NCBI GenBank assembly: GCA_964035545.1
Contig: OZ037765.1
Span: 34,299,504-34,363,503, forward strand
DNA from: Bugula neritina
Lineage: Eukaryota > Bryozoa > Gymnolaemata > Cheilostomatida > Bugulidae
Length of the DNA: 64,000 nucleotides
Reading direction: 5' to 3'
Made by a program: the position numbers and the translations under genes. Positions 1,712 through 53,069 of the stretch are shown one piece after another; position 1 is the first letter of the stretch, and each line of letters starts with the position of its first letter. The notes below the pieces were generated by a model. It was not told the origin of the DNA. It searched no databases and saw only the letters and a program-made list of their open reading frames with translations.

Positions 1712-4700
1712 GTGTGTATTACATAATAGTGTAGAAAGATAATTATTGTAATAAATATAAGTTAAAAATATATTTTTACATGTGTTCATAAAACTCTAAC
1801 AGATTTGCTACACTGAGATATATTATAATATTATACTGAGATACATTATAATGTTATACTGAGATATATTATAATACTATATATACTGAGATCTATTATC
1901 ATGCTATACTGAAATATATTATAATATTATACTGAGATATATTGTAATATTATAGGGGGTAACAGGGGCACAACGGTCATAGGGGTAGAAAAAGCCGGCG
2001 TAAATATTTTAGGATGTCGTTGAAGCCTTATAACTTTTTACACTCAAAGGCAAGAAGCCTAAATTTTACTAATATTGTTGCCATTGCTTGTCTCTACAAT
2101 GCTTAACTAGTATAACAGCAAAAACTGAAATAAATTTTCCTTGAGGCACATTTATTTTCAATTTGGCCACATGGGGCACAATGGGCCACCTGATTATTGC
2201 ACCCTGATCACTGTTATTAGTTTGTTTGCCCAAAAAGTTGGTTGAACTGTTACTAAAATCTATAAATATAGCCATTTCTGACCTTTTTGTAAAATATCAA
2301 AGACATCATGGTAAGACTACAAAACTACAAGTTGAAGCTCCCCTAATACATACATCTGGTGAGGTTGAAGCTTTGCCATTTTATACATAATACAAAACAC
2401 TCCGCTGTTGCTACTTGCTACTAGTAGATAGTCATGATAATCATTATATATTACACCATTGAGGGAATATACATGCATTTGACTGAAATAAATTGTGATT
2501 TGCTCATTCGCTCTCCCCTTTCCGTTCCGTACTCCAGTCACAAACCTCAGCCATGCATGCACCTTAGCTACAGTTCATTGAAAAAAGTTCACTCAGAATT
2601 TTTGTAGTACATTTTAGTAAAGTTTTTTTTAATAAACGTTGCTCTGAAGTGAAAATAACAAAACATTTTTAGTTTTTAACAGTAATGATAATGGCACTGC
2701 AGAACCGAGTGACGTGCGTTTGATTTTGCCTTCCTCTGCTATCCGTAGTGGCACAAACCGTACAGCTAAAACATGAATTTTGCTGTAGATCTGAAAGAGT
2801 ATCTTTATTTATTTGTATTATTAAATAAATAAAGATCAGATACAACAAAATACGCAAAATTTCAATATATTTGTTGTGTCCCATTGTACCCCGGTACTGG
2901 GGCACAATGGGCCAATTTTTTCGTCATGAAAATTTCATTATTCTGAAAGTTGTGAAAGAGATAGAAACAGGAAACTGGTACCTGTAATAGATAACAGATG
3001 TAGCATTAAGACTAGAGATTATTGAACTAGTAACTTGAAAAACAGACAAATGAGAGCAACAAATGCAAAATTCGGCCGGTTGTGCCTCCCCCCCCCCCCC
3101 CCCCCCGTTACCCCTACTGAGATATAATATAATGTTATACTGAGATATAATATAACGTTATACTGAGGTATATTATAACGTTATACTGAGATATATTATA
3201 ATGTTATACTGACATATATTATAATGTTAGACTGAGATATAATATAATATTATACTGAGACATATTATGATATTATACTGAGATATACTATCATGTTATA
3301 CTAAGATTTATTATAATGTTATACTGAGATATATTATAATGTTATACTAGCTGAGATATATTATAATGTTATACTAAGATATATTATAATATTGATTATT
3401 GTTGTAATTTGCACAATTACTATGCTTGGGTTTTGCTTGCGAGTTCAGTATGCTTTTCTAACTAGTAATTACTAGGGTAGTAGCCGTATAATAATTTTTA
3501 TTATCCACAATAAACACAGTATAAAACATCACATCAATTTACTACAATACAATAGCCATCTAATACTACGTGTACACACTTCGAGTCCTCGCTCACAACA
3601 ACGTGATAATTGTTAACTACCTGAGAACTGTCACTGGGCCGGAAAATCATCTTCCGGTTCTTCTTATTGGATAATACATTGGGGCCTTTAGTATTCCCGA
3701 GGAGATAAGATGGAGGAGAGGAGATAATTCTACATTATGATACTGCGTGACCCACTACAATATTATACTGAGATATATTATAATGTTATACTGAGATATA
3801 TTATAAGATTATACTGAGATATATTATAATGTTATACTGAGGTATACTATAAGATTATACTAAGATATATTATAATGTTATACTGAGATATAATATAATG
3901 TTTTACTGAGATATATTATAATATTATACTGCGATATATTGTAATAGTATAGTGAGATATATTATAAGGGTAATCAATAAACAGTTACTGTGTGATGCAT
4001 TGTATAATTAACCTGCCTTATTCCATCAAATACCAGGGAGTGTAACTCCAAGCATCTATGAAATATAATTACTAAACAATAGAAATTGCAGAGAATCTTA
4101 TATATTTACTACAGTGGTATTATATTACAAAGTATATTATGGAATTTTATTATTTATATGTTTATACAAAAGCCTTTTCAAAACAACAATTGTATTTTTG
4201 TCAGCGTACAGATTCTACAGAAGTTAGAGGAACTGGACATATCGTCAAGTAACTTCACCAATTTACCATCTCCTGTGTACACACTGAGTAGTCTGCAAGA
4301 ACTGAATATATCTTCCAATTACTCTTTGACATCCTTAGGATCTGAGATATTACAGCTAACTCAACTTCGTACACTGTATGTTAGAAATTGTGATGCTCTC
4401 ACCTCTCCTCCACTGGAAGTATGTCAGAGAGGAGTAGATGCTGTGAAACAATACTACACAGACTTGGCTAAAGGAGCTGGTAGACGTCTTCCATTCGCTA
4501 CTATAGCTGTGCTGGGTAATACGATGGCTGGGAAGACCAGTCTAATTAGAACATTACAGAATGCTGACAGAAAGAGAGTTCTGACCGACAGAGGACCAGA
4601 TGCTGTGAGAGATGAGGCAACAAAGGTGTTCAATGTTGAAGAGTTGGAGGTGGATGGTACAGTACTCCGTCTCATTGATATGGGAGGCCAGGAGGTCTAC

Positions 4701-7700
4701 CATATCACTTATCAACTAACACTGAGACAAAATTGCATTCCAGTCATAGTAGTCAACATGGAACAGTACGAAGAGGTTTCAAATGAATCAACACACAGAG
4801 AAGCTGTTAAAAGATTAGCCTTTAATTACATGTCTCACCTCTACCTGGCTAACCCAACCCTGGGTGCTCCAAAACTTATCTTCACACATAAAGATAAGTT
4901 TCAAAATGTGGAATTCCAAGAGCTTCGAACGAACTTTCTAGACACTTCCAATCAGCTGTGTGAGGAGATGATTAAAGAAGAGAAAGCATTGGGTGGAGAA
5001 TTTGCTCAAATCAAACATTTTAGTGAATCAACTAAAGGAGTCTTTCTTGGTGAAGACATTTATGAGGTGGGGAAAGATGATAAGTATGAAGTGTTTGACC
5101 TGATCAGGGAGTCTTTTCTTCAAAGCAGTCACAATTTTGTGAAACCATTACCTTTGGTCTGGGAGGAAGTAAATGAAAAAGTGCTGTCTATTCCCTCTGT
5201 GTACAGCACCTTTGATGAGATACTGAAATACGTGCAAACCGAACTTCAACAAATCGAATCGAGTCAGCTGGACATAATCCTCACATACATGCATGACTGC
5301 GGCAAAGTCTTGTGGTATAAAGATATCAGCTCTCTCCGGCCATACATATTCCACAAGATTCCACAAGTCACCAAACTTCTCTGCGTCTTGTATCATCATG
5401 ATCCTGACATATGGCAGAGTAGAGTTGACAAGTTCCAGCCATATTTTTCAGAGGATGGGATGCCTGTTGAAAAAGAAGACTTCAAAAGATTTGTTAATCA
5501 TTTCACTAAGACTGGTTTAATGATGCAATGCCTTCTCACTCATCTGGTTAAACAAGAAACGCCATTTACTGGTCTGGAAGATGTAAAAGTTGCTGTTTGC
5601 TTGCTCCTCACATTCCGTTTGTTATATGGTCCTTTACCTGCTGATTTCAAAGAGCCCTGTTTTATTGTTCCTCAGTTTGCTAATGACCTCTTTGATACCT
5701 CTTACTCTTCGCCAAAGAATATGCTTCTTCGAGTTGAAACCCAATTCAAGGGCTTAGCGCTACCACAATATGTCTACCAGCAGATGAATGTTGGTTTGCT
5801 AGAGTTGTTTTCCGATGAATTTGCTGTGATTAAAGTGAAGAAAAATGGCGCCAATGTCTATCAAGATGGTATCTACACACAGCTGGTACACGACTACAAA
5901 TCTAGAAAAGTGTCACTCCACGTGTCATCTAATGCTGCCAACATCAGCAGAATGTGGGAGAGACTCATCACCACCAACAACAACATCCTTAGACATGTTC
6001 TAGAAACTTGGAAAGCGAGTAGACCAGTCACTACATGCTACTGTGCTCACTGTCTTCTGCTAGGACTTCCTTGTCCTAATAAAGTGCTGAATCCTCTGTG
6101 GTGTCTTCGCTCCTTGAAACATTCCACACCAACAAGTCCCAGACTGTGCAGCGGATCTTCAACAACCCTGTGTGGTGATGAGGAGATACCCAGTGCTCTT
6201 CTGTATCCATGTACGTGTAATTTTATTTCAAAAATAGTTGATTTCTCTGTGGTTTATTTATCAACTTCTATTATTGGAATAATTTTTGTGGTAACTGACA
6301 GTTTTTCATTCTCCAGGCAGTCCTCTCTATCCAGAAGAAGCTGATAACATAAAAGAATGTGTCAACAAACTGAGATCTGCAAGAGAAGAAACTGCTTCAA
6401 CTGTCCCTGGTAGGATCAGTTGTCTATCATAAACTGTTACTGTTAGAAGTAACATCCTTTGCCTGAGCTCAGTCATATGTAAACAGCAAAGGACAAGAAC
6501 TCATGACCCTCAGTTATATAGGCTCTCTGCAAAAGCTCACACACCTTCAATTGTTTTAATTTATTTGTATAATTATTGACTGAAAAACACTCAAGTACTG
6601 ATTCGATTCATTGTTTATAGTCCTTTTGATACTTAGTATCTGTTACTTAGCACTGAATATATCTCTTTTTCGTTTTATTTTAGAGATGGGTAGAGAAAAG
6701 AATTGGTTAACTCAAACTACCTCAGTCCTTGTTGAAAACGACAACATCAGTGAATGCTCTGATGTTGAAGAGGAAGGATATGCTGACTTCACTAAAGATG
6801 ACCTTGAACCTTTCATATCTCTAGTTGAGGGTATGCAGCTGAAACCTACCAACAATGAACCAGTAAAACAGCTGTTTGACAACGACCGACAGGTAAAACA
6901 AGTTTTTTGATTTCTTTTTAGATCATTGATTAATATTTTTTTGATATTATGGCTCTTCATCTAATTTCTATTACATTTCATACTTGATTTGATTAATCCA
7001 TTTTCTGTTGTCTACTTTTAGTAATATAAAATTGATTGGTTTGCAGGTTTATGCGATGAGTGACCCTGTTAGAGGTCGTGTCATGATCATAAACAATGAG
7101 AGATTCTTTAGAGATGATGGCAGTGAACTGACTGAGGCAACCCGAGATGGTTCATACATCGACTATGTTAACATCAAAACTCTGTTGAAAGACATGGGAT
7201 TTGTTGTAGCCAATGAAGATGATCCTCTGTTTGACCTGAGTAAACAGGTTACTGTATCAATTTCTTATCTTTTCCTGTAGTTTATTCTCCCCAGGCTGTA
7301 GCTAGCTGTGATATAGCCTATAGCAAGTATTTTTACTGCAGAACCGAGGCATTGTATTCCAACAAATCTACAATAATATATTGTTAAATTGTATTCAAAT
7401 TATTAGTTTTTCTCAGTTCTGAGTTTTAGTTTAGAAACAGCAGCACTACTTAATAGTTCATCTTTGTTATAAATGTTTTAGTGTAATTTTGAAGCAGCTT
7501 TTGCTCGTGCGTAGAAACATTTACTTATCCAAACTTGATTTTACACACCATTATATACTTTTATTTTGCCAGGAGATATTATCAGAAGTGAGGAAGGAGA
7601 CCACCGACAAAGACCACAAAGATCTTGGCATGTTCATTCTAGTCATCATGTCACACGGAACTTCTGGAAACATCTTCTATGACAAATACTGTAAACCTGT

Positions 7701-8781
7701 CAACTTGTCAGAAGTCAAAGATTTACTCTCAGCTAGTAACTTTCTTGCCATGAGAGGAAAACCCAAACTCATCATCTTCCATGCTTGTTCTGGCAGTGAG
7801 TAATGCAGAGTTGTTCGTCATGTTACTAGAACTAGCAGTTAGATTGCATAGTTTCCTATAACTATAACATTAATTAATTTAAGGAATCATTATTTTCAAG
7901 ATGCCTTATGTTATTGGAGTATGCCTATGTGGAAGTGAGCTACACCTCATAACTGGAATCCAATAAACAGTGCTGTGTAATAGAGTTCTGCTTGTGAATC
8001 CAGTCCTAACTTATTACTTACCAACAAATCACAGAGTCTACATTATATGTATTTCATATACAGGCAGAGCTGACTTTGGTAATGCTGCACAGTCGCAAAG
8101 CCCAGACACCGTCTCACCACCAACGCCAACCCCTCTACCCTCATCTTCTGCAACAGCTGGGAGTGAGTCTTCTGCAGGTCAAAATGTGTCTCCAAATATT
8201 CACTTTGATAAATTCACTCACCTAGATGCTGATGACTTCTACATTGTGAAGCCAAGTACAGAAAGTTAGTGAGAAGAAAATTATATTTGAGTTGACTAAA
8301 ACTTTTATTGGTGCAAATTAAAATATTTGTTGCATGTAAATAAAACTATAGTAAGAATTAAATAGAAAGTATTTCACATATCAATTTGGCCTTCATATTT
8401 AACTGCTCATTTTCATGTGTTGCAGCTTACAAGGCTGGTAGGAATGAGAATTATGGTACCTGGTTTATCAGAATACTGGTGGCTACATTCTACAGACACA
8501 GCTGTCACAGAGATGTTAGTGAGCTGTTTAGGATAGTAAGTACTTCAGTATTACTCTTTGTATGATACTGTGGAGTGTGTTGAGTCATCAGCTTTATATT
8601 TCTCTTATATTTATACTTACAGATACAAGACAGAGTTAGACGAGTCAGTATTGCATATTGTAAGAAGACAGGAGATGAAGCAGCTGGTGGTAATGTACCT
8701 AATTGTCAGGAATGTACTTTCACTCACCTCAGAAAACTTTTCTTCTTCCCAGAGTTCCATGGCAGACAACTCCCACAGTGA
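136..8781 (+). CDS. LRR-Roc-COR-caspase fusion gene, copy 1 (5' end outside window)
   Basis: Predicted exons: 136-279, 612-755, 1090-1233, 1568-1711 (one LRR exon each), 4205-6210 (last LRRs, Roc, COR), 6317-6409, 6684-6892, 7047-7247, 7573-7795, 8064-8264, 8426-8535 and 8623-8781 (stop TGA 8779-8781). All junctions are AG/GT and all phases agree, giving 1258 codons plus stop in the window. The Roc part has Walker A GNTMAGKTS, a DMGGQ switch motif and THKD. The C-terminus is a complete caspase fold with His in SHG and Cys in HACSG. By family knowledge Roc-COR modules are GTP-regulated dimer switches and caspases cleave after Asp. The combined role, ligand sensing leading to proteolysis, is inference. 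The start lies left of the window, probably with a start exon like those at 21429 and 50601. No lesion is seen. Confidence 0.85.
1955..3115. mobile_element. MITE-like DNA transposon with GGGGTAAC...GCACAAC inverted ends
   Basis: The left end reads GGGGGTAACAGGGGCACAAC. The complement of the right end reads AGGGGTAAC, then a G-run and AGGCACAAC. The element interrupts the 23-bp array and is absent from copy 2's matching intron. Inside is a near-perfect hairpin (2880-2911, CCCATTGT...ACAATGGG). No transposase ORF is present. A fragment of the same family in reverse orientation lies at about 21010-21165. The target duplication is not clear in the AT-rich surroundings. Confidence 0.6.
3393..3759. 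mobile_element. Possible solo LTR or other insertion in the 23-bp array
   Basis: A 367-bp non-repetitive segment begins TGATTATTG and ends CCCACTACA (TG...CA). It is flanked by ATAT on both sides and interrupts the array. It is absent from the equivalent intron of copy 2. The TG...CA ends suggest a solo LTR, but in AT-rich DNA the short target repeat is weak evidence. Confidence 0.3.
4205..6210 (+). CDS. Large LRR/Roc/COR exon of copy 1
   Basis: This single 2006-bp exon starts after the acceptor at 4203-4204 and ends at a GTACGT donor. It encodes the last LRRs, then the Roc GTPase: P-loop GNTMAGKTS (4515-4541), DMGGQEVY switch II and THKDKF in the G4 position. The COR region follows, seen as PLVWEEVNEKVL, then HDCGKVLWY and FVNHFTKTGLMMQ. 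Near its end is a Cys-rich stretch (CYCAHCLLLGLPC) like the C-terminal COR segment of other ROCO proteins. GTP-binding residues are intact, so an active GTPase is expected. Confidence 0.9.
7047..8781 (+). CDS. Caspase domain exons of copy 1 (p20 and p10)
   Basis: Five exons encode a caspase. The p20 part begins at RGRVMIINNERF and TRDGSYIDY, the latter matching the first S1-pocket Arg region. It includes catalytic His in MSHGTSG (codon 7654-7656) and catalytic Cys in FHACSG (codon 7786-7788). A Pro/Ser-rich linker with Asp residues (exon 8064-8264) could be the inter-subunit cleavage site. The p10 part has AGRN in the place of the usual SWRN, then GTWFIRIL and CTFTHLRKLFFFP. The pentapeptide is HACSG rather than QACxG, so the S1 Gln is His. 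A working Asp-specific protease is plausible but unproven. Confidence 0.85.
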
Positions 8782-21376: not shown

Positions 21377-21465
21377 ATGAGAATGAAGACTATTGAATAC
21401 AACTAGAGCTGTAACCTGTGACTACAGGATGGGTCAACGTAAATCTGTTCCTAGAGACGAATCAA
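21377..21465 (+). other. Predicted start exon of copy 2 (MGQRKS N-terminus)
   Basis: The exon would follow the acceptor GTTGTTACAG (ending 21376), contain a short 5' leader and begin coding at ATG 21429. It encodes 12 residues and ends in phase 1 before GTTAGT. Gly2 and Ser6 fit the N-myristoyltransferase consensus. Joined to the exon at 22442 the split codon becomes AAG (Lys). Homologous exons lie at 44635, 47401 and 50549. Confidence 0.5.
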
Positions 21466-24400
21466 GTTAGTAAATCATATAAACACTACGTAACCATGGT
21501 AACTACAGAACTTTTATATTTTACTTTTATGTGTTATGACATTCAGGTGCAGTAGTGGAGAAGTTGAGATAGCATAAGTTCTTTATTGTTCATAACAAAT
21601 TATACGTTGGGGTTTGGGTTTACATTGTCACGAGAACACAACTTCTTTTGCTACATTTCTGATCTAGAAACACATGCGATTTTCATTTCTTTACCCTGCA
21701 CTAATTAGGACCACAACTGAGTAATATTTTGCTGGTGTTTATTATATAATGTTATATATTATATAATATTATATACTGATTGTTAGTTATATAATGATTT
21801 AGCTTCGCCCATGTATTTCTATATACAGTGTTGAGTGAGATCTCTTCATTTAAATTCTCATGAGAACATAACTCCTTTTGTTACATTTATAATCTACAGT
21901 TTCATTACTTTGCACCTAGCTCTGTTTTCACCATAGCTGAATATTATATTGTTATAGTGTTTATATACTATAACTATTATGCTATAACTATTATACTATA
22001 ACTATTATGCTATAACTATTATACTATAACTATTATACTGTAACTATTATACTATAACTATTATACTATAACTATTATACTATAACTATTATACTGTAAC
22101 TATTATACTATAACTATTATACTATATCTATTATACTGACTTATATTATATTATATTGTATTATATTATATTATATTATATTATATTATATTGTATTGTA
22201 TTGTATTGTATTGTATTGTATTATATTGTATTATAATATATTATATTATATTATATTATAACATATACTGTACAGAAGTATAAACAACATGGCTACCCTT
22301 TCACCTGTCAGAATATCTCACAGGATGTATTTTGAAGAACTTATAAAATCTCCAAGTTTACTTAAACACTGTTTATAGTGTTGAGACACTCTATTATTTG
22401 ATATCAAAGTTATTATTTATAAAGTGGTGAATATTTTGTAGAGAAGTACTATGTGTGGTTCAACAAATCTAGAATAGATGGAGCTAATAATGAGTGGATG
22501 TGGAATGATATTAAATCCTACACTATAGAAAAGATCAAGAAGAAAAGTAGACATCATACAGTGACTCATGTTGTACTGAAGTATGACATTCCTCCAAATA
22601 TCAACACACTGTTTCCTCATCTCACACATCTGAGGGTATCTAGAGTATACAGGAATGCTGACTGGACCAGGTATTATGTTGTTATTATAATTTATAACTA
22701 TATTCATAAGTGAGATATTATCTTGTAGTAGAATGTGGAGTAATCTCCCCTCACAATAACACTATAGCTTTAGTAACAACTTTTGTATTATTTACCTTAT
22801 TTATTGTATTTCTATTTATGTTTCAATTTAAAGTGAGTTGCTGTCATTTAAACATAGTCTAAACATATAATGTATAATAGTATGTGATAATTATGTAGAA
22901 TTGAATATACTGTTACACCTGTATATAATTATTATGTTACAGCATATCTTCACTGAAGAATCTTGAGGTATTGAATATGTCATTCAGTGACTTATCTAAA
23001 GGTCTACCAAACAATATATGCAGATCCTTACCATCATTGAGAGAATTGTACATGGAGGTCTGTCAACTTCCAACTCTACCAAACAGGTGTATATTATATT
23101 ATACATTATGAAGTTATCTGCACTATCTTTATTGTGTCAACTAGACTCTGTGTATATTATACGTCACAAGTCAATTATTGTATTCTATTCTATTAGATAT
23201 ACTCAGATAGAAATGGTATAACAACTTCTCACTTACTCCTCTAATAAATTATTTTACTGTGTAACAGTTTATATTGGCACCAGGTATAAAATTTGTTATA
23301 ATATAAAATTATATCCATATAAGTTAGATACTCTCTTGTAGCTGATTGTAATGTGAAGCTATTATACATTTCTCTTTCTCTTTGAAATAACCTGAGTCTT
23401 AGTAGCAACTGCTGTATTATTTATCTGGCTCTTAGTGGTCAGATCAAGAGTTAAGTAAAACTAAATTATTCTTATTCAATAATAATACTTTTATATAGTA
23501 GGTCAACTTACTACCTTTTCGTTATGTTACAGCATATCTTCACTGAAGAATCTTGAGGTATTGAATATATCAGCGAATAAGCTATCTGAAGGTCTACCTG
23601 ACAATATATTCACATCCTTACTATCATTGAGAGAGTTGAACATGAAGTACTGTAAACTCCCAACTCTACCAAACAGGTGTGTATTATATTATAGTGTAGA
23701 ATGATACTGTAATATATATAATATATAAACATAAAGTCAATATAATTGTGTAGAAACTTATGACATAATATTTTACCATAATCAGAGTGATTTATAATAT
23801 TATAATTATGTCTATTATGAGATATATTATAATATTATACTGATATATATTATAATGTTATACTGAGATATATTATAATATAATACTGAGATATAATATA
23901 ATGTTATACTGAGATATATTATAATGTTATACTGAGATATAATATAATGTTATACTTATATATAATATAATATTATACTGAGATATATTATAATGTTATA
24001 CTGAGATATATTATAATGTTATACTGAGATATATTATAATATTATACTGCGATATATTGTAATAGTATAGTGAGATATATTATAATGTTATACTGAGATA
24101 TATTATAATGTTATACTGAGATATATTATAATATTATACTGAGATATAATATAATGTTATACTGAGATATAATCAGGGATGTAGTGGTACCCATACGGTC
24201 CCATACGCCGTATGGCCTAAAAGAAAATAGGCTGTTCTTGGCCATACGCCCGTATGGGCATATATTTTTTGAAAGTGTTAGCCTAGGGCCACACTGTGCG
24301 TGCGTGATAAATAAAGCTTTCATTTTTAAATCGCACTCCCTTTCAATAAAACGTAATTTACTGGAATTTAGCACTAAAATAAAGAAATTGGGCTCGCTTA

Positions 24401-27400
24401 ATAATACCAGGTGACGACGACAGAGACGATTCACACTTGCGTTGAAAATGCAGAGCGACAAGTGCGAATGTTTTCTCAACGCGCACAGTGGACACCTTTG
24501 CTACTTGTGATTTCAATTTTCGCATGCGAAAATACGCACCGTGTGGCCCTAGGCTTACTGATTAGTGCACAGGATAGTTAGGGCATCCTCACTGAGAACA
24601 TCATAAATTTCGCTCACAATATAGTTTAAGTTCTTGTTATGTTAATGCTATGTGGGTGGCATGCGTGTTGCCTACTTGTGATTGTTTAGCCTGAGATTAC
24701 ACTATGAATAATAAGCAGCTATCAACATTCCATCTTCTCATCTCTACGTATTCATTGAAGCGCGAAGTGCTGCGCATTAGTGATTACTAAGGAAAAAATA
24801 TTTCATTTTCAGTGTATAAATCACTAATTTGTAGAAAGTCTATGAAGGCTATTGAAAAGATAAAAAAGTTTGCTATGCATAAATTTCTCAGGTTTTCGAC
24901 AGTGTTTGTTTTATTCGAATACTATGCTTTCCTGCTGAGATATTTGGCAGGGATTGAAAAATAAACTTTTCAGGTAAAATTGCCCAAAATAGTAGATTTT
25001 TGTCTATAACCTTGCAAAAAAAATATTGAAAATTCGAAAAATCAGGTGCTCTGAGGAACAGGAAGATCTAAAACATAGTTTTTAAATTTTAATTCTAGCA
25101 CAATTAAGTACGGTTTTATTTGGCGGGACTGAATTCTTATAATATACCAATAATGTGGCCTCAGCAAGGCAGTGTCAGCTAGAAAGTTGCCATTATTTAT
25201 CTTGTGTGGACTTGCATTTTGTCAATAAGCAATGAAATTTGGAAAAAAACCAACATGAAATCCAGAAATAAAATCAAAATGTCTTCAGGAAACAATACCA
25301 GGTGTGTAGGAGAGGTTAATGAAAATTTATCACTGAGGTCTACAGGTCTATATCCACATTTTGGTTGCGTTATTCCATGTTAATTATCAATGCAATGAGG
25401 TTTTGCAAACTATACACCACCATAAGTAGGTAACCTTTTATGTTTGATTGTACTAACGTTTGGCTTTACATTTAATCATCTTCTAGGTTAACACATATTG
25501 AACCTGTCAAATTTGTTCTTTTGGGTATATTTCCTTGATGTGTCTAGTGGAAGCTCAGGGGTTTTACTTTAAAACCAAGTTAACATACTCTTCTTTGGTG
25601 TGCTTTATTGTGTGAAAGGAGGTGCGGTGGTATCTCCTTATGGATTAGACTAGTAGGCTATACTCTAATAAACTCCAACTAGGTTTTCAACCAATTTCTG
25701 CTTGCCAATGAGTTATCAATTCAAATTGCTCTTTATAAATAACCAACACACATTTTCTGATTTGCAATCTTCCTCTGTTCTGTTCTATTATTCTTTTTCT
25801 GTGCACGGCAGTGTATTGGTTATTTAAAGTAATCAGGTTGCATTTGGAGAGCACTTGTTACCTGTCTCTATCCTTCCATCTTTTTGAGATCTTCAGCAAT
25901 TTTTCTGTACAGGTTGGACTTAGTGTCAGTTGAGTAAGACTACATTTAAAATTACAGTCAACAGGTATGGGACAATACTGAATATTTATATAGTTTGCAG
26001 CGATGCCCAGTCGTCATGTAGCTGGTATGGTATGAAAATAATAGTGAGGTGCACATTTCAACACAGATTTTTTTCAGAAGAATTAGAATTCACAATGGCT
26101 TTAAATTGCATAAATTTGCATCAGAAGCGCTCTGAGGGCTTCGGCGGCCGGGGCACTGCCCCGGACCCCGCCGGGGGCCTGGGCGGCCCCCTGGACCCCC
26201 GGCCTGAGAGTATGGCCTAGAACATTTTTGCCACTACATCCCTGGATATAATATAATATTATACTGAGATATATTATAATGTTATACTGAGATATATTAT
26301 AATATTATACTGATATATAATATAATGTTATACTGAGATATAATATAATATTATACTGAGAAATATTATAATGTTATACTGAGATATATTATAATATTAT
26401 ACTGAGATATAATATAATGTCAATCCATAGTTACTGTGTGATGCATTGTATCATTTACCTGCTCCAACTTGTATCAAACACCACGGAGTATAACTCCTAA
26501 CAGCTATAAAATCTATGTACACAAAGCTATAAATATAGTTGCAGAATCCTATATATTCATTATAATAGTATATATTAGAGAGTATATTATATAATTATAT
26601 TATTTATTTTCATATCAAAGCAGTATTTGTTTTTCTTTCAGCATACAGAATCTACAGAAGTTAGAGAGACTGAACATATCAGAGAATAACTTCACCAGTT
26701 TACCATCTCCTGTGTACACACTGAGTAGTCTGCAGAAACTGTATATATCCTCCAATAAGTCCCTGACATCCTTAGATCCTAGGATATTACAGCTAACTCA
26801 ACTTCATACACTGCATGTGTCTGGTTGTAATGCTCTCACATCTCCTCCACTAGAAGTATGTGAGAGAGGAGTAGATGCTGTGAGACAATATTACACAGAC
26901 TTGGCTAAAGGTGCTGGTAGAAGTCTACCATTTGCTACTGTCGCTGTGCTGGGTAATACGATGGCCGGAAAGACCAGTCTAATCAGAACATTACAGAATG
27001 CTGACAGAAAGAGAGTTCTGACCGACAGAGGACCAGATGCTGTGAGAGATGAGACAACAAAGGTGTTTAATGTTGAAGAAGTGGAGGTGGATGGTACAGT
27101 ACTCCGTGTCATTGATATGGGAGGCCAGGAGGTCTACCATATTACCTATCAACTGACACTGAGACAGAACTGTATTCCAGTCATAGTAGTCAACATGAAA
27201 CAGTACGAAGAGGTTTCAAATGAATCAACACACAGAGAAGCTGTTAAAAGATTAGCCTTTAATTACATGTCTCACCTTTATCTGGCTAACCCGACCCTGG
27301 GTGCTCCAAAACTTATCATCACACATAAAGATAAGTTTCAAAATGTAGAATTTCAGGAGCTTCGAACAAACTTTCTAGACACTTCCAATCAGCTGTGTGA

Positions 27401-30400
27401 GGAAATGATTAAAGAAGAGAAAGCATTGGGTGGAGAATTTGCTCAAATCAAACATTTTAGTGAATCAACTGAAGGAGTCTTTCTTGGTGAAGACATTTAT
27501 GAGGTGGGGAAAGATGATAAGTATGAAGTGTTTGACCTGATCAAGTTGTCTCTTCTTCAAAGCAGTCACAATTTTGTGAAACCATTACCTTTGGTCTGGG
27601 AGGAAGTAAATGAAAAAGTGCTGTCTATTCCCTCTGTGTACAGCACCTTTGATGAGATACTGAAATACGTGCAAACCGAACTTCGACAAATTGAGTCGAG
27701 TCAGCTGGATATAATCCTCACATACATGCATGACTGCGGCAGAGTCTTGTGGTATAAAGATATCAGCTCTCTCCGGCCATACATATTCCACAAGATTTCA
27801 CAGGTCACCAAACTTCTCTGTGTCTTGTATCATCATGATGCTAACATATGGCAGAGTAGAGTTGACAAGTTCCAGCCATATTTTTCAGCAGATGGGATGC
27901 CTGTTGAAAAAGAAGACTTTGAAAGATTTGTCAATCATTTCACTGAGACTGGTTTGATGATGCAATGCCTTCTCACTCATCTGGTTAAACAAGAAACACC
28001 ATTTACTGGTCTGGAAGATGTAAAAGTTGCTGTTTGCTTGCTCCTCACATTCCGTTTGTTATATGGTCCTTTACCTGCTGATTCCAAGGAGCCCTGTTTT
28101 ATTGTTCCTCAGTTTGCTAATGACCTCTTTAATACCTCTCACTCCTCGCCAAAGAATATGCTCCTTCGAGTTGAAACCCAATTCAATGGCTTAGCGCTAC
28201 CACAATATGTCTACCAGCAGATGAATGTTGGTTTGCTAGAGTTGTTTTCCGATGAATTTGCTGTGATTAAAGTGAAGAAAAATGGCGCCAATGTCTATCA
28301 AGATGGAATCTACACACAGCTGGTACACGACTACAAATCTAGAAAAGTGTCACTCCACGTGTCATCTAATGCTGCCAACATCAGCAGAATGTGGGAGAGA
28401 CTCATCACCACCAACAACAACATCCTTAGACATGTTCTACAAACTTGGACAGCCAGTAGACCAGTCACTACATGCTACTGTGCTCACTGTCTTCTGCTAG
28501 GAGCTCCTTGTGCTAAGAAAGTGCTGAATCCTCCATGGTGTCTTCGTTCCTTGAAACATTCCACACCACCTCCGAAAATGTGTAGCGGGTCTTCAATAAC
28601 CCTGTGTGGCGATGAGGAGATTCCAAGTGCTCTTTTGTATCCATGTACGTCTAATTTTACTTCATACAAAATAGTTGGTTTCTCTGTTCTTTATTTATCA
28701 ACTTTTATTATTATAATAATTTTTGTGGTAATTGACGATGTTTCATTTTCCAGGCAGCCCTCTATCTCCAGAAGAAGCTGATAACATAAAAGAATGTGTC
28801 AACAAACTGAGATCTGCAAGAGAAGAGACTGCTTCAACTGTTTCTGGTAGGATCAGTTGTCTATCATAAACTGTTACTGTTAGAAGTAACATCCTCTGCC
28901 TGAGCTCAGTCACATGTAAACAGCAAAGGACAAGAACTCATGACCCTTAGTTATATAGGCTCTCTGCAAAAGCTCACACACCTTCAATTGTTTTAATTTA
29001 TTTGTATAATTATTGACAGAAAAACACTCAAGTATTGATTCTGTTCATTTTTTATAGTCTTTTTGATACTTAGTTTCTGTTACTTAGCACTGAATATATC
29101 ACCTTTTGTTTTCTTTTAGAGATAGGTGGAGAAAAGAGTTTGTTAACTCAAACTACTTCAGTCCTTGTTGAAAACGACAACATCAGTGAATGCTCTGATG
29201 TTGAAGAAGAAGGATATGCTGATTTCACTAAAGATGACCTTGAACCTATTATATCTCAGGTTGAGGGTATGCAACTGAAACCTACCAACAATGAACCAGT
29301 GAAACACCTGTTTGACAACCACAAACAGGTAAAACAAGTTTTTCTTATTCATTTTTAGACCATTGATTAATATTTTTTGATATTGCGGCTCTTCATTTAT
29401 TTTCTAATAAATATCATATTTGATTTTATTAATCCATTTTCAGTTGTCTATACTCTTAGTAAGATAAATTTGATTGGTTTGCAGGTTTACGCGATGAGTG
29501 ACCCTGTTAGAGGTCGTGTCATGATCATAAACAATGAGAGATTCTTTAGAGATGATGGCAGTGAACTGACTAAAGTAACTCGAGATGGTTCATACATCGA
29601 CTATGTTAATATCAAAACTTTGTTGAAAGACATGGGATTTGTTGTAGCCAATGAAGATGATCCTCTGTTTGACCTGAGTAAACAGGTTACTGTATCAATT
29701 TCTTATCTTTTCCTGTAGTTTATCCTCCCCAGGCTATAGCTAGCGGTGATATATAGCAAGTATTTTTACTGCAGAACGGAGGCATTGCATTCCAACAAAT
29801 CTACAATAATATGTTGTTAACTTGTATTCAGGTTGTTTGTTTTTCTCAGTTCTGAATTTTAGTTTAGAAACAGCAGCACTACTTAATAGTTTATCTTTGT
29901 GATAAATATTTCAATATAACTTTGAAGCAGCTTTGGCTTTCGCGTAGACACATTTACTTATTCAAACTTGTTTTTACACACCATTATATACTTTTATTTT
30001 ACCAGGAGCTATTATCAGAAGTGAGGAAGGAGACCACCCACAGAGACCGCAAAAATCTTGGCATGTTCATTCTAGTCATCATGTCACATGGAACTTCTGG
30101 AAACATCTTCTATGACAAATACTGTAAACCTGTCAACTTGTCAGAAGTCAAAGATTTACTCTCAGCTAGTAAATTTCCTGCCATGAGAGGAAAACCCAAA
30201 CTCATCATCTTCCATGCCTGTTCTGGCAGTGAGTAATGCAGAGTTGTTCCTCATTTTACTAGAACTAGCAGTTAGATTGCATAATTTCCTATAACTATAA
30301 CATTAATTAATTTGAGAAATCATTATTTTCAAGATGCCTGATGTTATTGGAGTATGCCTATGTGGAAGTGAGCTACACCTCATAACTGGAATCCAATAAC

Positions 30401-31209
30401 CAGTGCTGTGTAATAGAGTTCTGCTTGTGAATCCAGTCCTAACTTATTACTCACCATCATACCACAGAGTCTACATTGTATGTATTTTATATACAGGCCG
30501 AATTGACTTTGGTAATGCTGCACAGTCACAAAGCCCAGACACCGCCTCACCACCAACACCAACCCCTCTACCCTCATCTTCTGCAACAGCTGGGAGTGAG
30601 TCTTCTGCAGGTCAACATGTGTCTCCAAATATTCACTTTGATAGATTCACTCACCTAGATGCTGATGACTTCTACATTGTGAAGCCAAGTACAGAAAGTT
30701 AGTGGGAAGAAAATTATATTTGAGTTGACTGAAACTTTTATTGGTACAAATTAAATTGTTGCAAGTCAATAAACCTATTACAAACTTTAAATAGAACTAT
30801 TACACATATCAATTTTACATCCATATTTAACTGCTCATTTTTATGTGTTACAGCTTACAAGGCTGGCAGGAATGAGAATTATGGTACCTGGTTTATCAGA
30901 ATACTGGTGGCTACATTCTACAGACACAGCTGTCACAGAGATGTCAGTGAGCTGTTTAGGATAGTAAGTACTTCAGTATTACTCTTTGTATGATACTGTG
31001 GAGTGTGTTGAGTCATCAGCTTTATATTTCTCTTCTATTTATACTTACAGATACAAGACAGAGTTAGACGAGTCAGTATTGCATATTGTAAGAAGACAGG
31101 AGATGAAGCAGCTGGTGGTAATGTACCTAATTGTCAGGAATGTACTTTCACTCACCTCAGAAAACTTTTCTTCTTTCCAAAGTTCCATGGCAAACAACTC
31201 CCACAGTGA
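21429..31209 (+). CDS. LRR-Roc-COR-caspase fusion gene, copy 2 (complete model)
   Basis: Predicted coding exons: 21429-21465 (start, MGQRKSVPRDES), 22442-22670, 22943-23086, 23533-23676, 26642-28644, 28754-28846, 29120-29328, 29485-29685, 30006-30228, 30497-30697, 30854-30963 and 31051-31209. They total 3753 nt, that is 1250 codons plus TGA with all phases matching. Layout: possible N-myristoylation site 1-6; LRRs about 50-255; Roc P-loop 289-297; COR about 450-800; acidic linker to 953; caspase p20 954-1095 with His1048 and Cys1092; p10 about 1145-1250. The Roc and caspase exons differ from copy 1 by few substitutions. The start exon is the least certain part: its donor is A|GTTAGT, and joining the older leader exon instead would create a stop. 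The promoter seen upstream of copy 3 is not present here. Confidence 0.8.
21959..22262. repeat. 14-bp (ATAACTATTATACT) and TTATA tandem arrays, copy 2 5' region
   Basis: About 13 copies of the 14-bp unit (21959-22139) run directly into a TTATA/TTGTA array (22140-22262). The same pair of arrays recurs at 45969-46406 and 47968-48973, each within the 5' intron of the LRR gene. Confidence 0.9.
24174..26244. mobile_element. Non-autonomous hAT transposon with 8-bp target duplication
   Basis: The ends are inverted repeats CAGGGATGTAGTGG and CCACTACATCCCTG. The flanks are identical 8-bp GATATAAT (24166-24173 and 26245-26252), diagnostic of the hAT superfamily. No transposase reading frame is present in the 2071 bp. 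Near the right end is a GC-rich hairpin block (about 26128-26205, GGGGCACTGCCCCGG). It is absent from copy 1, so it inserted after the unit duplication, and it carries a nested MITE. Confidence 0.88.
24281..24554. mobile_element. Harbinger-type MITE nested in the hAT element
   Basis: The termini are GCCTAGGGCCACAC and its complement, flanked by TTA on both sides (24278-24280 and 24555-24557), typical of PIF/Harbinger targets. The left terminal repeat is shortened relative to the related element at 63644-63987. Confidence 0.75.
26642..28644 (+). CDS. Large LRR/Roc/COR exon of copy 2
   Basis: This 2003-bp exon is one codon shorter than in copy 1, in the Pro-rich stretch after KHSTP near its end. 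Walker A GNTMAGKTS (from 26952), DMGGQEVY and THKDKF are intact, so GTP binding is expected. COR motifs PLVWEEVNEKVL, HDCGRVLWY and FVNHFTETGLMMQ are present, followed by the same Cys-rich tail. Differences from copy 1 are scattered single substitutions, consistent with a recent duplication. Confidence 0.9.
29485..31209 (+). CDS. Caspase domain exons of copy 2
   Basis: Exons 29485-29685, 30006-30228, 30497-30697, 30854-30963 and 31051-31209 encode the whole caspase. Arg986 (TRDGSY) and Arg1167 (AGRN) match the two S1-pocket arginines that bind the substrate Asp carboxylate. The pocket Gln is His1090 in HACSG. The catalytic pair is His1048 and Cys1092. The linker contains SPDT and LDADD, possible self-cleavage sites. 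The reading frame is intact with only a few differences from copy 1. Confidence 0.85.
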
Positions 31210-38310: not shown

Positions 38311-40807
38311 TCTCTCTCTCTCTCTCTTGCAGTCAGTCGATACGGCTATGACTGTTTTATGGATTAAGCTTAGATTTGGTTGCAGCTCTCCACGCAGCTC
38401 TGTTGTCAGCTGTCTGCTGCCATGAACTCAAGTTTATTGCTCTCCATTTCATATTCCTCTTAGCAACATCTTTAAGTCTGAGTCTAGGTTGCCCTGTACT
38501 TCTTTTACCCTTTTTCAGCTGAGAGTAGAGCAATTGCCTTGGTAGCCGGCTATGTTCCATCCTGTGCACATGGCCTAGCCATCTCAAGTTCTTTTCTATA
38601 AGGATGTCGGCCATGCTTGGCAAATTGGCACGTCTTAATATTTCTTCATTCGTAACTTTGTCATACCATTTTACAGCCATTATGTCTCTCAGTTGCCTCA
38701 TCATGAAGGCGCTTAGCTTCTTCACCTGTGTCCTGTATATTGTCCATGTTTCTGCTCCATACAGCAGGCTTGAGAGCACCACCGCTCTGTAGACTTTACA
38801 CTTTACCCTGATGGATACGTGCCTGTTGTTCCAGAGTCTCTGCTGCAGCTTACCGTAAGCCGCACTTGCTTTGCCTAATCTGTTCCGTAGCTCTTTATCT
38901 ATTTTTGCCGTACAGGAAACAGTACTTCCTAGATAAGTAAAGTTTGAGGCAAGTACAACTGGTTCTTGATCTATCATGACAACTTCAGGTTCAGGTGGAG
39001 GGTGGATGAGTTTGATTGGCTGGTACATGCATTCTGTCTTTTTTATGTTGATTTTTAAGCTAAACTGAGCCGCTGCTTTTGCAAAGTTGTTCACTAGCAC
39101 CTGCATATCTGCAGCGCAATGTGCCACCAAAGCACTGTCATCAGCAAACAACATCTCTCTGACTAGGTGTTTGGTGGTACGGGTCTTAGACTTGAACTGA
39201 GCCACATCAAAGAGGTCAGCCCCATGTCGAGTTTGAATATAAATCCCTTCATTTACATTTTGAAATGCCACCTCAAGCATAGCGGTCAAGTATAATGAAA
39301 ATAGTGTTGGCGCAAGAACACACCCCTGCTTGACACCATTGGTTACTGCAAACTCATTTGAAGCATCTCTACCTTGCACTACCTTGGCTTGCATGCCTGC
39401 ATGAAGAGCTTTTATCAGGTTGGTGACCTTCTCAGTTAAGCCAAACTTCTTCAGTACCCTCCAGAGGCCATCTCTTGATACTGTATCAAAGGCTTTTGTA
39501 AAGTCTATAAATACAGCATACAGCTCCATGTTTTGTTCAGCACATTTTTCTTGAATTTGGCGAAAGCTAAATATCATATCAATGGTGCTCCTGCTGTTTC
39601 GAAAGCCACACTGTGTTTCTGGGAGTATTCCTGGAGTTATATTTACATTGATTTTGTTGAGGATGATACGGGCCATAATCTTTCCAGCTATAGACAAAAG
39701 CGAGATTCCTCTATAATTACCACAGTCCTTCCTACTACCCTTTTTAAAAATGGGCACAATTTTCGCATTTTTCCAGTTCTGTGGCATCTTTTCATTACTC
39801 CATATATAAGCAATCAGATCATATAGTCTCTCTTTAAGCCTGATTCCACCGTACTTCCACACCTCAGCTGGAATGCCACATTCTCCAGGAGATTTATTCT
39901 CCTTGGTTGCATCTATAGCATCCAGAAGCTCATCAAAACTTGGCATATCGTCTAGGCTTAAATTGGGTGGCATATTTGTGAGACTATTGAGAGCTTCCTG
40001 ATCCACTTCCCCTGGTACATTCAGCAACAGGTCAAAATGTTGGGCGAACCTTTTTAAGGTATCATTCTTTGCTGTAAGTACTGTTTTACCACTTTGGTCC
40101 AGCAATTGGGCGATTCCCCTGTTCTGTGGCCCATAGACTTCTCTAAGGCCATTGTAAAATGCCTTCATGTTGTTTTTATCAGCTGCCTGTTGGAGTTATT
40201 CTGCTTTTTCCTCCCACCATTGAGACTTTTTCTCTCGAGTGTATTGTTGCAACTTGCTGCGTGCTTGCGCTAATCGGTCAGTGCTACTTCTTGTTCTTCT
40301 CTGTAGTGCTTTTGATTTAGCCTTATTTCGTTCATTAAGTAATGCGTTCAGCTTTGCATCATTGTCATCAAACCAATCTTGATGCTTTCTTTCTGCTCTA
40401 CCTAAGACTTTGGTAGCTGTGTTGAAGGCTGAGATCTTTAACCTTCCCCATCTCTCTTCTAAGGTTACACCATCATCATCTCTATAGTCCATTGCCTTAT
40501 CCATCTGTTTCTGAAACTCCTGTAGCATATCCTGATTTTGTAGTTTCCCCACATTGAGTTTGCATGCGGAGTTCCCTCTTGTCTTGTTCTTTGCTTTCCT
40601 TAATGCAAATGCTAGCTTGGACCTGATCATGGTATGGTCAGTTGAGCAATCAGCACCTCTCATTGCCCTAGTATCTAGCACATCATTCTGGTCTTTCCGT
40701 CTTGTAATCACATAATCGAGGAGGTGCCAATGCTGAGAACGTGGGTGCATCCAGGTGACTTTATGATGCTGCCTGTGCTTAAATACTGTGTTCGTGATAA
40801 CAAGCTG
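38311..40807 (-). mobile_element. 5'-truncated non-LTR retrotransposon (LINE)
   Basis: On the minus strand an endonuclease C-terminal piece (HPRSQHW, then LLDYVITRRKD and STDH) leads into a reverse transcriptase with FIDFTKAFDTV, NGVKQGCVLAPTLF and the catalytic FADD. Its C-terminal region includes YGAETWT and LRWLGHVHRM. The two ORFs (40196-40750 and 38357-40168) are one frame broken by a single TAA at 40196-40198. The 3' end is a GA-rich tail at about 38311-38326. It interrupts CACCACTCT|AATACTTAT, which is uninterrupted in copies 1 and 3, so it inserted after duplication. The clade (RTE-like or other) was not settled. Confidence 0.9.
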
Positions 40808-44634: not shown

Positions 44635-44705
44635 ATGAGAATGAAGACTATTGAATACAACTAGAGCTGTAACCTGTGACTACAGGATGGGTCAAAGTGA
44701 ATCAA
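44635..44705 (+). other. Start-exon duplicate encoding MGQSES
   Basis: It has the acceptor GTTGTTACAG, ATG at 44687, six codons and then A|GTTAGT. Relative to 21429 it has lost 18 bp in frame. Gly2 and Ser6 are kept, so the myristoylation consensus survives. Confidence 0.4.
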
Positions 44706-45078: not shown

Positions 45079-45850
45079 TGTTTGTTTGTTTTATTTTGTC
45101 GTAGTTGGAGAAAAAAAATTAATTGAGAAAAAATAAACAAAATGACAGGGCCTATGGCGCAATAGCACTGTAGCTAGTCGAGGCGCCGAGCCATGAATGG
45201 TTGACAGTTATATAAGATTTTTGTTTAGGTTTTTGGAAGTTTTTAGCAACTCAAAGAGTTTTATTTTTTTATCTGGAAATTTGCCATTAGGTGGTCTCTC
45301 AGGGCAAATTTGAAACCAGCCTCCCTCTCCACAGCACGAATAGAACTAGGCAATTTATTCCATAGCGACGATCATTGGAATTCCACTCTTCGTTGACCTG
45401 CAGCAGTTGATGATGGAGGAGTTTGTAGGCTGAACTCTGAAAATCTTGTGGGATAGTTATGTGTGAGGTGTGTTAGTTGAGAATAGTAAAGTTTATGTGA
45501 GAGCAGTATTAGTTTGAATTTGTGTAGAGTGTGAATAGGCATGATTGAAGAACTAAGAAACAGTGGTTTAGATGGGGAAAGGTGATGCTTTTTATAGATA
45601 ATTCTCAGTATTTTCTTTTGTAGTAAATGTAATGGTTCAAGATAAATGTTTGCTGCATTACCCCACGATTCTAGGCAATATGTTATCTTAGAATTTACAA
45701 AAGAGTTATATATTTGTATTAGAATTTTTCTAGGTAGGTGATGGGAACATTTACTTATCAAGCCTACTAAGGGCCTTAGGTTTTGACAAGGTTTACTGCA
45801 ATGTTGTTGCCAAGAAAGATGTGAATCTATTATAATACCTAAGAAGGTTG
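45079..45850 (-). mobile_element. LINE 3' fragment (CR1/Jockey-like RT tail)
   Basis: A 169-residue minus-strand ORF (45372-45881 region) matches the end of non-LTR reverse transcriptases: FLGIIIDSHLSWQQH, YCLESWG and LQKKILRII. On the + strand it starts with a TGTT repeat tail and interrupts ACAGTGTT|GAGTGAG, which is continuous at 21831 and 47835. Only the 3' end inserted. Confidence 0.8.
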
Positions 45851-45968
45851 TTGAGTGAGATCTCTTCATTGAAATTCTCATGAGAATATAACTTCTTTCT
45901 TACATTTCTAAACTACAGTTTCATTACTTTGGACCTAGCTCTGTTTTGATCATAGCTGAGTATTATAT

Positions 45969-50600: not shown

Positions 50601-53069
50601 ATGGGTCAACGTAAATCTGTTCCTAAAGACGAATCAAGTTAGTAAATTATATAGATATAAATACTACCAGTTATAGCTGCAGAATTTTTACATTATACGC
50701 TTTTATGAGTTACATGACATTCAGTTGCAGCACTAGAGAAATTGAGGTAGCCTAAGTTCTTTAATTCTCTTAAAAAGATTTGCATTGGGGCGTGGTTAAA
50801 AATCTCACGAGAACATAACTCCATTTGTTACATTTCTGATGAATAAATACAAGCTTTTTTCAACTTTGTATTATATACTTTGCACCTAACTTTGTGTTGA
50901 CCACAACTGGGTGCATTATTGTATAATGTTATATACTGACTTATATTATATACTATAACTATTATACTGAAGCTTATATTATAATATATCAAAGTATAAT
51001 ATATTGTTATACTGACATATATATTATATTATATCACAAATAAAGTGTTATTATTATTTTATATTATATTGTAACTATTATACTAACCTACATCATGTTC
51101 CGTTACAATAATTGTAGTAACCTTAGTTAACTGTTATAACATGCACATTTTACTGACCTATATTGCTTTATATTACATTATATTACATTATATTACATTA
51201 GAATACTATAACACATACTGTACAGAAGTATAAACAACATGGCTACCCTTTACCTGTCATCTGCTATAGTTGATGTCTGCGTCAGTTACAGGGATGAGTC
51301 ATACTCTTAGGTATAAACTGACAAAGTGGGCACAACTTGAATATACATTCAGATTTTATCACAGGATTTCAATTTAATTATCTGTAATTTTAAGTAGTTA
51401 AAATGTAAAATGTTTATTGTGTAACTATTGCCAGTTATGGTTCTATGCATTGATAGTGTTTACAAACATTCTATTATTATAAAAACTTTTATTTATAAAG
51501 TAGTGAATATCTTGTAGGGAAGTACAGTGTGTGGTTCAACACATCCAGTATAGATGGAGCTGATGATGAGTGGATGGAGAATGATACTACATCCTACACT
51601 ATAGAAGAGATCAATGATATAAGTAGACATCATACAGTTATAACTCATGTTGTACTGAAGCATGACATTCCTCCAAATATCAACAAACTGTTTCCTCATC
51701 TCACACATCTGAAGGTATCTGGAGTAGAGAGTGATGCTAACTGGACCAGGTATTATTTTATTATAATATGAAACTATATTAATAAGTGAGATATTATCTT
51801 GTAGTAGAATGTGGAGTAATCTCCCTTCACAATAACACTAGCTTTAGTAACAATTTTTGTATTATTTACCTTATTTATTGTATTTCTATTTATGCTTCAA
51901 TTTAAAGTGAGTTGGTGTCATTTAAACATAGTCTAAACATATAATGTATAATAGTATGTGATAATTATGTAGAATTGAATATACTGTTACACCTGTATAT
52001 AATTATTATGTTACAGCATATCTTCACTGAAGAATCTTGAGGTATTGAATATGTCATTCAGTGACTTATCTAAAGGTCTACCAAACAATATATTCACATC
52101 CTTACTATCATTGAGAGAGTTGAACATGGTGCTCTGTAAACTGTCAACTCTACCAAACAGGTGTGTATTATATTATACATTATGAAGTTATCTGCACTAT
52201 CTTTGTTGACTCAACTAGACTCTGTGTATATTATACGTCACAAGTCAATTATTGTATTCTATTCTATTAGATATGTACTCAGATAGAAATGGTATGACAA
52301 ATTCTCACTTATTACTCTAATAAATGTGGACAAGTAAATTATTTTGCAGTATAACTATATAACTATGTTGCATTAAATAGGTTATATTGAGAACAGGTGA
52401 TAATACAGACCCTTTTCCAATGCCCCTGTACTCAATTTCAAGTTAGGAGTTGAGTCCTCTTCAACAGGGATTGAGTTAAACCATGTTTTAGAGAGAAAAC
52501 TAATTACAACTTTAAAGTTTGACTGTTATTTAAAATCTCAACTATGCTATGGAATTGTTCTTATAGGAGATAGATATTCTGGTATAGCACACATATTAGC
52601 AGTTCAAGAAATATTTTACAAACATTTCTTCATAATAAGTTTTGAAAAAAAGTAAATTTGAAAGCCTTTTCGTGATTTTGGTTATTGAGCAATGCTGAAG
52701 GGCAGTTGAGATATGAATTCCTTTATTTATTTGTTGTGCTGGCTGTCACCACTTTGTTTAGATCTGTTAACCTTTCAATTCCTTGGAAAAGGGTCTACTG
52801 ATATAAAATAAGCTATACTCTTAAGTGAACTATTACATTGTTGAGTGAAATGTAGAGTGCTAATGATAATACCCAGGAGTTCAATAGACTTTGATGATTT
52901 TCTACCCGTGTGTTATATGTTACAGCATATCTTCACTGAAGAATCTTGAGGTATTGAATATATCACATAACTACCTATTTGAAGGTCTACCTGACAATAT
53001 ATTCACATCCTTACTATCATTGAGAGAGTTGTACATGATGGACTGTAACCTGCCAACTACACCAAACAG
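50601..53069 (+). pseudogene. LRR gene copy 3, lacking Roc-COR-caspase
   Basis: Exons: 50601-50637 (MGQRKSVPKDES), 51518-51749, 52017-52160 and 52926-53069 (LRR exons, 144 bp each, phase 2). The first junction gives AGG (Arg). After the last LRR exon the intron matches the window's left edge (53207-53247 equals 1-41) and then jumps into the CTATACT array, so everything from there through the caspase stop is gone. What remains could encode an LRR-only protein only if an unseen terminal exon exists. I list it as a truncated copy, though its exons have no stops. Confidence 0.7.

Follow-up and report, generated by a model that had tools for sequence, protein, structure and literature searches.

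The gene described here lies in a 64,000-nucleotide stretch of chromosome 1 of the bryozoan Bugula neritina (34,299,504-34,363,503; hereafter the window), where it occupies window positions 21429-31209 on the forward strand (chromosome 1, 34,320,932-34,330,712). It encodes leucine-rich repeats (LRRs), a Roc-COR GTPase module and a caspase in one coding chain, and a splice artefact is unlikely to account for this arrangement. As reconstructed from the DNA, the chain consists of 12 exons leading from an ATG at 21429 to a TGA that ends at 31209; all 11 introns are of the GT...AG type with consistent phases, and the product of 1250 residues plus stop codon is read in one frame with no internal stop, which confirms the 1250-codon chain described in an earlier note on this DNA. 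The sponge setting which that note had assumed is replaced by a bryozoan one, the Bugula database protein P0045 being 94% identical over 358 amino acids to one of the paralogs treated below (L033), and the link between COR and caspase is corrected to two exons, 28754-28846 and 29120-29328. The gene probably belongs to a large B. neritina family of cytosolic receptors, each of them a single chain that carries its own tethered caspase. Its parts, taken from the reconstructed chain, are:

21429-21465, forward strand: exon 1, with the start codon, MGQRKSVPRDES
22442-22670, forward strand: exon 2, an N-terminal module
22943-23086, forward strand: exon 3, a cassette of 144 nt that encodes two LRRs and has phase 2 at either end
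23533-23676, forward strand: exon 4, a further cassette of 144 nt that encodes two LRRs and has phase 2 at either end
26642-28644, forward strand: exon 5, the last LRRs, the Roc GTPase, COR and a Cys/His-rich segment ending PSALLYP, followed by the conserved donor
26952-26978, forward strand: Roc P-loop GNTMAGKTS, in exon 5
27114-27131, forward strand: Roc switch II motif DMGGQE, in exon 5
28754-28846, forward strand: exon 6, a linker in which SPLSPEEADNIKECVNKLRSAREE, by eye, probably forms a short helix
29120-29328, forward strand: exon 7, acidic linker SECSDVEEEGYAD...PTNNEPVKHLFDN
29485-29685, forward strand: exon 8, first part of the large caspase subunit (VRGRVMIINN, TRDGS)
30006-30228, forward strand: exon 9, second part of the large caspase subunit, with the catalytic His and Cys
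30497-30697, forward strand: exon 10, joining the two caspase subunits, in which RID, SPD, HFD and HLD are candidate Asp processing sites (putative cleavage)
30854-30963, forward strand: exon 11, first part of the small caspase subunit (AGRNENYGTWFIR)
31051-31209, forward strand: exon 12, second part of the small caspase subunit, with the stop codon

At the protein level the LRRs lie at about residues 90-252 (Pfam LRR_4, 5.7e-15) and are followed by Roc at residues 285-377 (Pfam, 30.5 bits against a cut-off of 27), in which both the P-loop and the switch motif are present. The search with Roc, COR and caspase profiles that the earlier note had suggested places Roc and Peptidase_C14 over their cut-offs and COR-A under it (E=0.035, 14.5 bits against 35.3 required), whereas several paralogs exceed the COR cut-off. 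For this reason the structure of exon 5 was modelled with AlphaFold2 on an alignment of 25 sequences (A1), which gave a pLDDT of 81 and a pTM of 0.79. The best Foldseek matches of this model are LRRK1 (2.6e-21), the LRR-Roc-COR protein of Chlorobium tepidum (CtRoco, 2e-20) and LRRK2 (2e-16), with the isolated COR domain 3dpt lower down (1.9e-10); among the 21 best matches query-length TM-scores are moderate (0.44-0.55) and sequence identity is 12-16%. These matches support an LRR-Roc-COR fold, and the modelled fold supports a COR domain directly after Roc where the sequence profile would be insufficient alone.

The C-terminal part is recognised as a caspase over nearly the whole of the Peptidase_C14 profile (residues 962-1230, 88.9 bits against a cut-off of 21.4; profile positions 1-227 of 233), its best PDB matches being caspase-3 (5e-19) and CED-3 (5e-17). 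As the earlier note had stated, both catalytic residues are present, the His at 30087-30089 (SHG) and the Cys at 30219-30221 (HACSG). In an alignment to caspase-3, two Arg residues with a role in the S1 pocket are kept, one in TRDGS (SRSGT in caspase-3) and one in AGRNE (SWRNS in caspase-3), and the Gln is not. Among 15 Pfam families at E<=0.1 in the window protein there is no CARD, DED, death, kinase, TIR or NACHT domain, nor any match to the NACHT or NB-ARC ATPase of NLRs.

The window contains a second copy of the same fusion upstream of the gene, the 5' end of which lies outside the window:

136-1711, forward strand: a set of four LRR cassettes that precede copy 1, each on its own exon (136-279, 612-755, 1090-1233, 1568-1711)
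4205-8781, forward strand: copy 1, from Roc-COR to the caspase stop, in eight exons (4205-6210, 6317-6409, 6684-6892, 7047-7247, 7573-7795, 8064-8264, 8426-8535, 8623-8781)

Over these eight exons the splice sites of copy 1 are identical to those of copy 2, the window gene, which upholds the earlier argument that a fusion repeated in copy 1 is no chance splice model. Between the two copies the ratio of nonsynonymous to synonymous substitution rates (dN/dS) is 0.29 in exon 5 (Roc-COR), 0.24 in the COR-caspase linker, 0.33 in the large caspase subunit (p20), 0.54 in the p20-p10 linker and 0.17 in the small subunit (p10, only five changes). The linker exons keep the reading frame and evolve under purifying selection.

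The association extends over the genome. A set of 60 distinct Roc/COR loci was drawn from all 23 places matching PF16095 and from 39 PF08477 matches in open frames of at least 450 amino acids; 150 of the 338 PF08477 candidates were scored and 111 of these 150 Roc matches were dropped uninspected as small GTPases or fragments, and the open-frame filter means that the sample favours the fusion family. The caspase list comprises 132 genome places matching exon 9 as a single-exon query, which is many for an animal. In 55 of the 60 Roc/COR loci, on chromosomes 1, 3, 5, 6 and 7, a caspase exon lies on the same strand within 6 kb downstream (at 2-5.2 kb), and in none of the 60 is one found downstream on the opposite strand or upstream on either strand, at 6 or 10 kb. 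The five remaining loci include two on C6 with a caspase exon at 7.5 and 8.9 kb and one on C1 at 13 kb; two C7 COR matches in short frames, without a nearby caspase exon, are probably other ROCOs. The size of the family is given as a lower bound of at least 55 fusion loci.

For 20 of the 21 COR-A loci with a caspase the surrounding region was fetched (L017-L036), and since these were picked for having both matches already known they show order and exon structure, not frequency. Roc-COR is followed by both large-subunit exons in order in all 20 and by a small-subunit exon as well in 17; these paralogs are roughly 30-47% identical to the window gene. The short linker exon is alike by eye in the window gene (PLSPEEADNIKECVNKL), L024 (LSGDELQKLSDFVKTNF), L034 (LSAENINELEQFVKSYY), L027 (SLSEEEGACLSSYLSKY) and protein P0006 of the bryozoan Watersipora (TLSRRELRELENYVNEKL), an acidic linker exon is seen in L024, L027 and L034, and the linker exons as a whole are similar by eye across subfamilies, in the four loci compared, and in Watersipora P0006 and P0038. 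Distances among Roc-COR sequences correlate with those among p20 sequences in 23 proteins (22 Bugula loci and P0006) with a Mantel r of 0.97, reached by none of 5000 permutations, as is expected from a single ancestral fusion. The fused coding architecture is conserved in the family and its two halves are co-inherited. A chance splice model is rejected on the exon order of the paralogs, the splice sites of copy 1 and the downstream caspase exons of 55 of the 60 loci.

The fusion has counterparts outside Bugula in proteins of Watersipora subatra. P0006 ('uncharacterized protein' in NCBI) is a single annotated chain of 1413 amino acids with the order LRR-Roc-COR-caspase and a similar linker, and is 30% identical to the window protein across all of residues 260-1250; it differs in its degenerate P-loop and in its Cys motif, QACGG. 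P0039 ('MFHAS1 homolog' in NCBI, 34% identity) runs from LRRs through COR and linker to the start of a caspase, within which it is truncated. A protein search seeded with P0006 returned only P0006 itself.

Several points weigh against a single-chain receptor with a working caspase, and the first of them bear on transcription. The reading is drawn from DNA. Neither AATAAA nor ATTAAA occurs in the 719-791 bases after the stop of copy 1 or copy 2, and copy 2, unlike copy 1, has an AATAAA inside intron 7, at 29406. An internal Met start is possible in the exon before the caspase (YAMSDP). Of the six named bryozoan models found in a protein search with an alignment (A2), only P0006 contains a whole caspase and P0039 contains the first 49 profile positions; P0038 and P0041 (Watersipora) and P0045 (Bugula draft) end inside the linker, P0045 reading past a donor of the window-gene type to use another, skipping the counterpart of exon 6 and lacking Roc, and no caspase is seen in P0049. 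Taken together, the models that stop in the linker, the intronic AATAAA and the possible second start would suit a ROCO receptor gene and a caspase gene that lie side by side, are co-duplicated and are transcribed wholly or mainly separately, perhaps with a caspase-only transcript from YAMSDP. The sequence at the end of the COR exon can be read both ways. If unspliced, the donor would be read as a stop (AGT TAG, TGT TAG) in 11 of the 15 loci in which it was read, namely the C7 and the L034/L035 copies, which would favour separate genes; against this, a donor N|GTNNGT follows a P..LL.P-like end of the COR exon in all 15 loci, which represent four subfamilies (seven of the 22 loci were unread by the pattern). 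Two adjacent genes also fit poorly with linker exons that are kept in frame under purifying selection, with the absence of any other Roc/COR-caspase arrangement within 10 kb, and with P0006, which joins all parts, P0039, which joins COR, linker and caspase start, and P0038, which joins COR to both linker exons, so that separate genes are considered quite improbable.

Further points concern the protease, which in a true fusion could be a pseudoprotease or a scaffold that recruits other caspases in the manner of cFLIP. The residue before Ala-Cys is His in both window copies and not the usual Gln, so that HACSG departs from the QACxG pattern. The paralog L036 (C6:15224184-15234183) has an intact P-loop, a catalytic His replaced by Gln and an altered Cys motif, QCLANG, and is likely, judging by these residues, to be a pseudo-caspase receptor and a divergent family member; the C7 copies have AHG at the His site and five C1 copies have VACR. 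Across the family, however, the caspase His is kept in 21 of 22 Bugula loci and Ala-Cys in 18 of the 19 with a readable Cys motif (L026, L028 and L033 were not read by the pattern), the preceding residue being Gln in 11, Val in five and His in the two window copies. The dN/dS values of p20 and p10 also argue for constraint on the protease, and loss of catalysis as the rule is regarded as unlikely. In the GTPase, the Roc P-loop GxxxxGKTS is kept in 22 of 22 Bugula loci, and the switch glutamine of DxGGQ is found in only two of the 19 Bugula rows of A1, both being the window copies, with Asn, His or Asp in the other rows, and again in five metagenome rows (P0001-P0005). Together with the degenerate P-loop of P0006 and the variable Cys motif, this would imply that GTP hydrolysis and protease preference may differ between subfamilies.

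The sensor part of the receptor consists of repeated cassettes, of which copy 1 has four and a partial copy described below two, and a second subfamily has the same layout. LRRs follow the consensus LxxLxLxxNxL, the x positions of which are taken as exposed. Replacement differences are concentrated at these positions, with 62% at 12 of 47 in a set of eight cassettes and 78% in the second subfamily. The proportions of nonsynonymous and synonymous differences (pN/pS) are 0.259/0.099 at the 12 predicted exposed positions and 0.061/0.066 elsewhere in the eight cassettes, and 0.252/0.168 and 0.027/0.124, respectively, in seven cassettes of the second subfamily. Label shuffles are as extreme in 4 of 20000 and 0 of 20000 cases, and at the exposed positions pN stays above pS whichever single cassette is omitted. 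The test omitted L030 (147 nt) and the single LRR exons of L034-L036. Within exon 5, dN/dS is 0.83 at the LRR start as compared to 0.14 in Roc and 0.24 in COR. The LRR faces look diversified, and their excess of replacements is the pattern of recognition surfaces. The cassettes in both tests are few in number and related to each other, both sets had been viewed before the positions were chosen, and gene conversion could have distorted the outcome. Zooid degeneration is routine in bryozoans, which leaves some room for a stress or developmental switch in place of immunity, for example in polypide regression, with a copy number due to passive tandem duplication. ROCO proteins act in many processes (PMC11378527), but a family of 55 or more loci spread over five chromosomes and the replacement excess on the LRR face fit variable recognition better, and a role outside recognition is held to be rather unlikely.

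The N-terminus may determine where such a receptor acts. The start MGQRKS agrees with the N-myristoylation pattern MGxxxS, and such a modification would put the receptor at membranes; Watersipora P0038 begins MGQKR. Besides exon 1 there are three first-exon-like places in the window, at 44687, 47453 and 50601. The first two are starts reading MGQSES with the same donor and without recognised following exons. The third belongs to a partial copy (50601-53069) which has an exon 1, an N-terminal exon at 51520-51747 (72% match to exon 2) and two LRR cassettes; no Roc-COR or caspase exon was found downstream of it within the window, and it may be either a copy that has lost its 3' part or a reserve of LRR cassettes.

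In animals it is normally adaptors with death-fold domains that recruit caspases, and a self-contained mechanism in which sensor, switch and executor lie in one chain, as the earlier note had supposed, is plausible for the window protein. The kind of ligand, the direction in which GTP drives the switch, cleavage by the caspase and the ensuing cell death are inferred. It is proposed that the LRR cassettes bind varied ligands, whether microbial or allogeneic, and that ligand binding would change the nucleotide state and dimerisation of Roc-COR, which would serve as a nucleotide-dependent oligomerisation switch. The C-terminal animal-type procaspases would thereby be brought together or released and become activated by induced proximity, with self-cleavage between large and small subunit at Asp residues of exon 10, and possibly also in the acidic linker, and the active caspase could then start a cell death or defence cascade. 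A last adverse point is that CtRoco opens and is monomeric in the GTP state (PMC11052575), which means that GTP should not be assumed to bring the caspases together, and the switch may work in either direction.

The earlier note implied that no LRR-Roc-COR-caspase protein was known. A bacterial class of predicted proteins is in print, in which conflict proteins of the type LRR-AP-GTPase(Roc)-COR have a C-terminal slot filled by at least 24 domains, the caspase included (Kaur et al. 2021, PMC8195603; related systems in PMC7159879), and the fused Watersipora P0006 is in NCBI, so the architecture is not categorically new. The window gene has the layout of the bacterial class, with LRRs, Roc-COR and a C-terminal caspase in one chain, and like that class has fast-evolving N-terminal LRRs and a C-terminal effector. 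It differs in being intron-rich, in having an animal-type caspase (nearest to caspase-3 and CED-3 in PDB) and in carrying LRRs on cassette exons, and in the Bugula family one effector type has been found in 55 of 60 loci, as opposed to the bacterial mix. In brown algae, LRR-ROCO genes likewise have LRRs on repeated phase-2 exons under diversifying selection and are proposed immune receptors (Teng et al. 2024, PMC11378527); unlike the Bugula cassettes their exons are 72 nt long with one LRR each, and LRR-ROC-COR is reported to be their sole, effector-free domain structure. Animal LRR-Roc-COR genes with an immune effector domain include actiniarian NG1 (PMC5094078) and an Aplysia gene (PMC9334734), which have TIR in place of the caspase, the COR of NG1 being seen at low threshold only. 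No animal LRR-Roc-COR-caspase was found among the open-licence papers listed (titles and abstract starts; subscription papers fell largely outside this scope), and the word 'caspase' is absent from the main text of two bryozoan genome papers (PMC13326412, PMC7576161).

Among better known animal proteins, LRRK1 and LRRK2 share the LRR-Roc-COR core by fold, but these two as well as the ROCO proteins DAPK1 and MFHAS1 have a kinase or death domain where the window protein has a caspase. In NLR inflammasomes an NLR, a CARD or PYD adaptor and caspase-1 also unite a sensor and a nucleotide switch with a caspase in a single pathway, whereas the window protein has a Roc-COR GTPase and not a NACHT ATPase, is a single chain and has no death-fold domain that was seen. 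It is tentatively suggested that the family is a germline-diversified immune or allorecognition system of cheilostomes, comprising dozens of receptors, each with its own executioner, in which exchangeable two-LRR cassettes (perhaps alternatively spliced) would set specificity, the ROCO switch would relay it and the tethered caspase would determine the outcome without inflammasome adaptors. In this joint interpretation, the Bugula-type fusion would have arisen independently of the bacterial version. Sensor, switch and protease are apparently one gene at no fewer than those 55 loci of a colonial animal, with LRR faces that look diversified. If true, this would be another animal route from recognition to cell death, parallel to the bacterial and brown algal ROCO receptors, would couple a switch of the LRRK2 type to the activation of a caspase in a protein amenable to testing, and would provide a candidate for recognition within bryozoan colonies.

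The fusion loci are clustered on chromosome 6 at about 2.5-6.3 Mb, on chromosome 7 at about 5.1 and 7.6 Mb and on chromosome 1 at about 32.5-35.5 Mb. Caspase exons at C2 30.51-30.55 Mb and C9 9.32-9.41 Mb have no Roc/COR nearby among the matches listed and may belong to caspases with other partners. Elsewhere in the window, reverse-transcriptase-like open frames at 38357-40195 and 45372-45899, both on the reverse strand, resemble by eye those of retrotransposons without long terminal repeats. The LRR-Roc protein P0050 of Branchiostoma belcheri has glycosyltransferase domains among its precomputed Pfam matches and is reminiscent of the GT4 effector fusions of Kaur et al. (PMC8195603).

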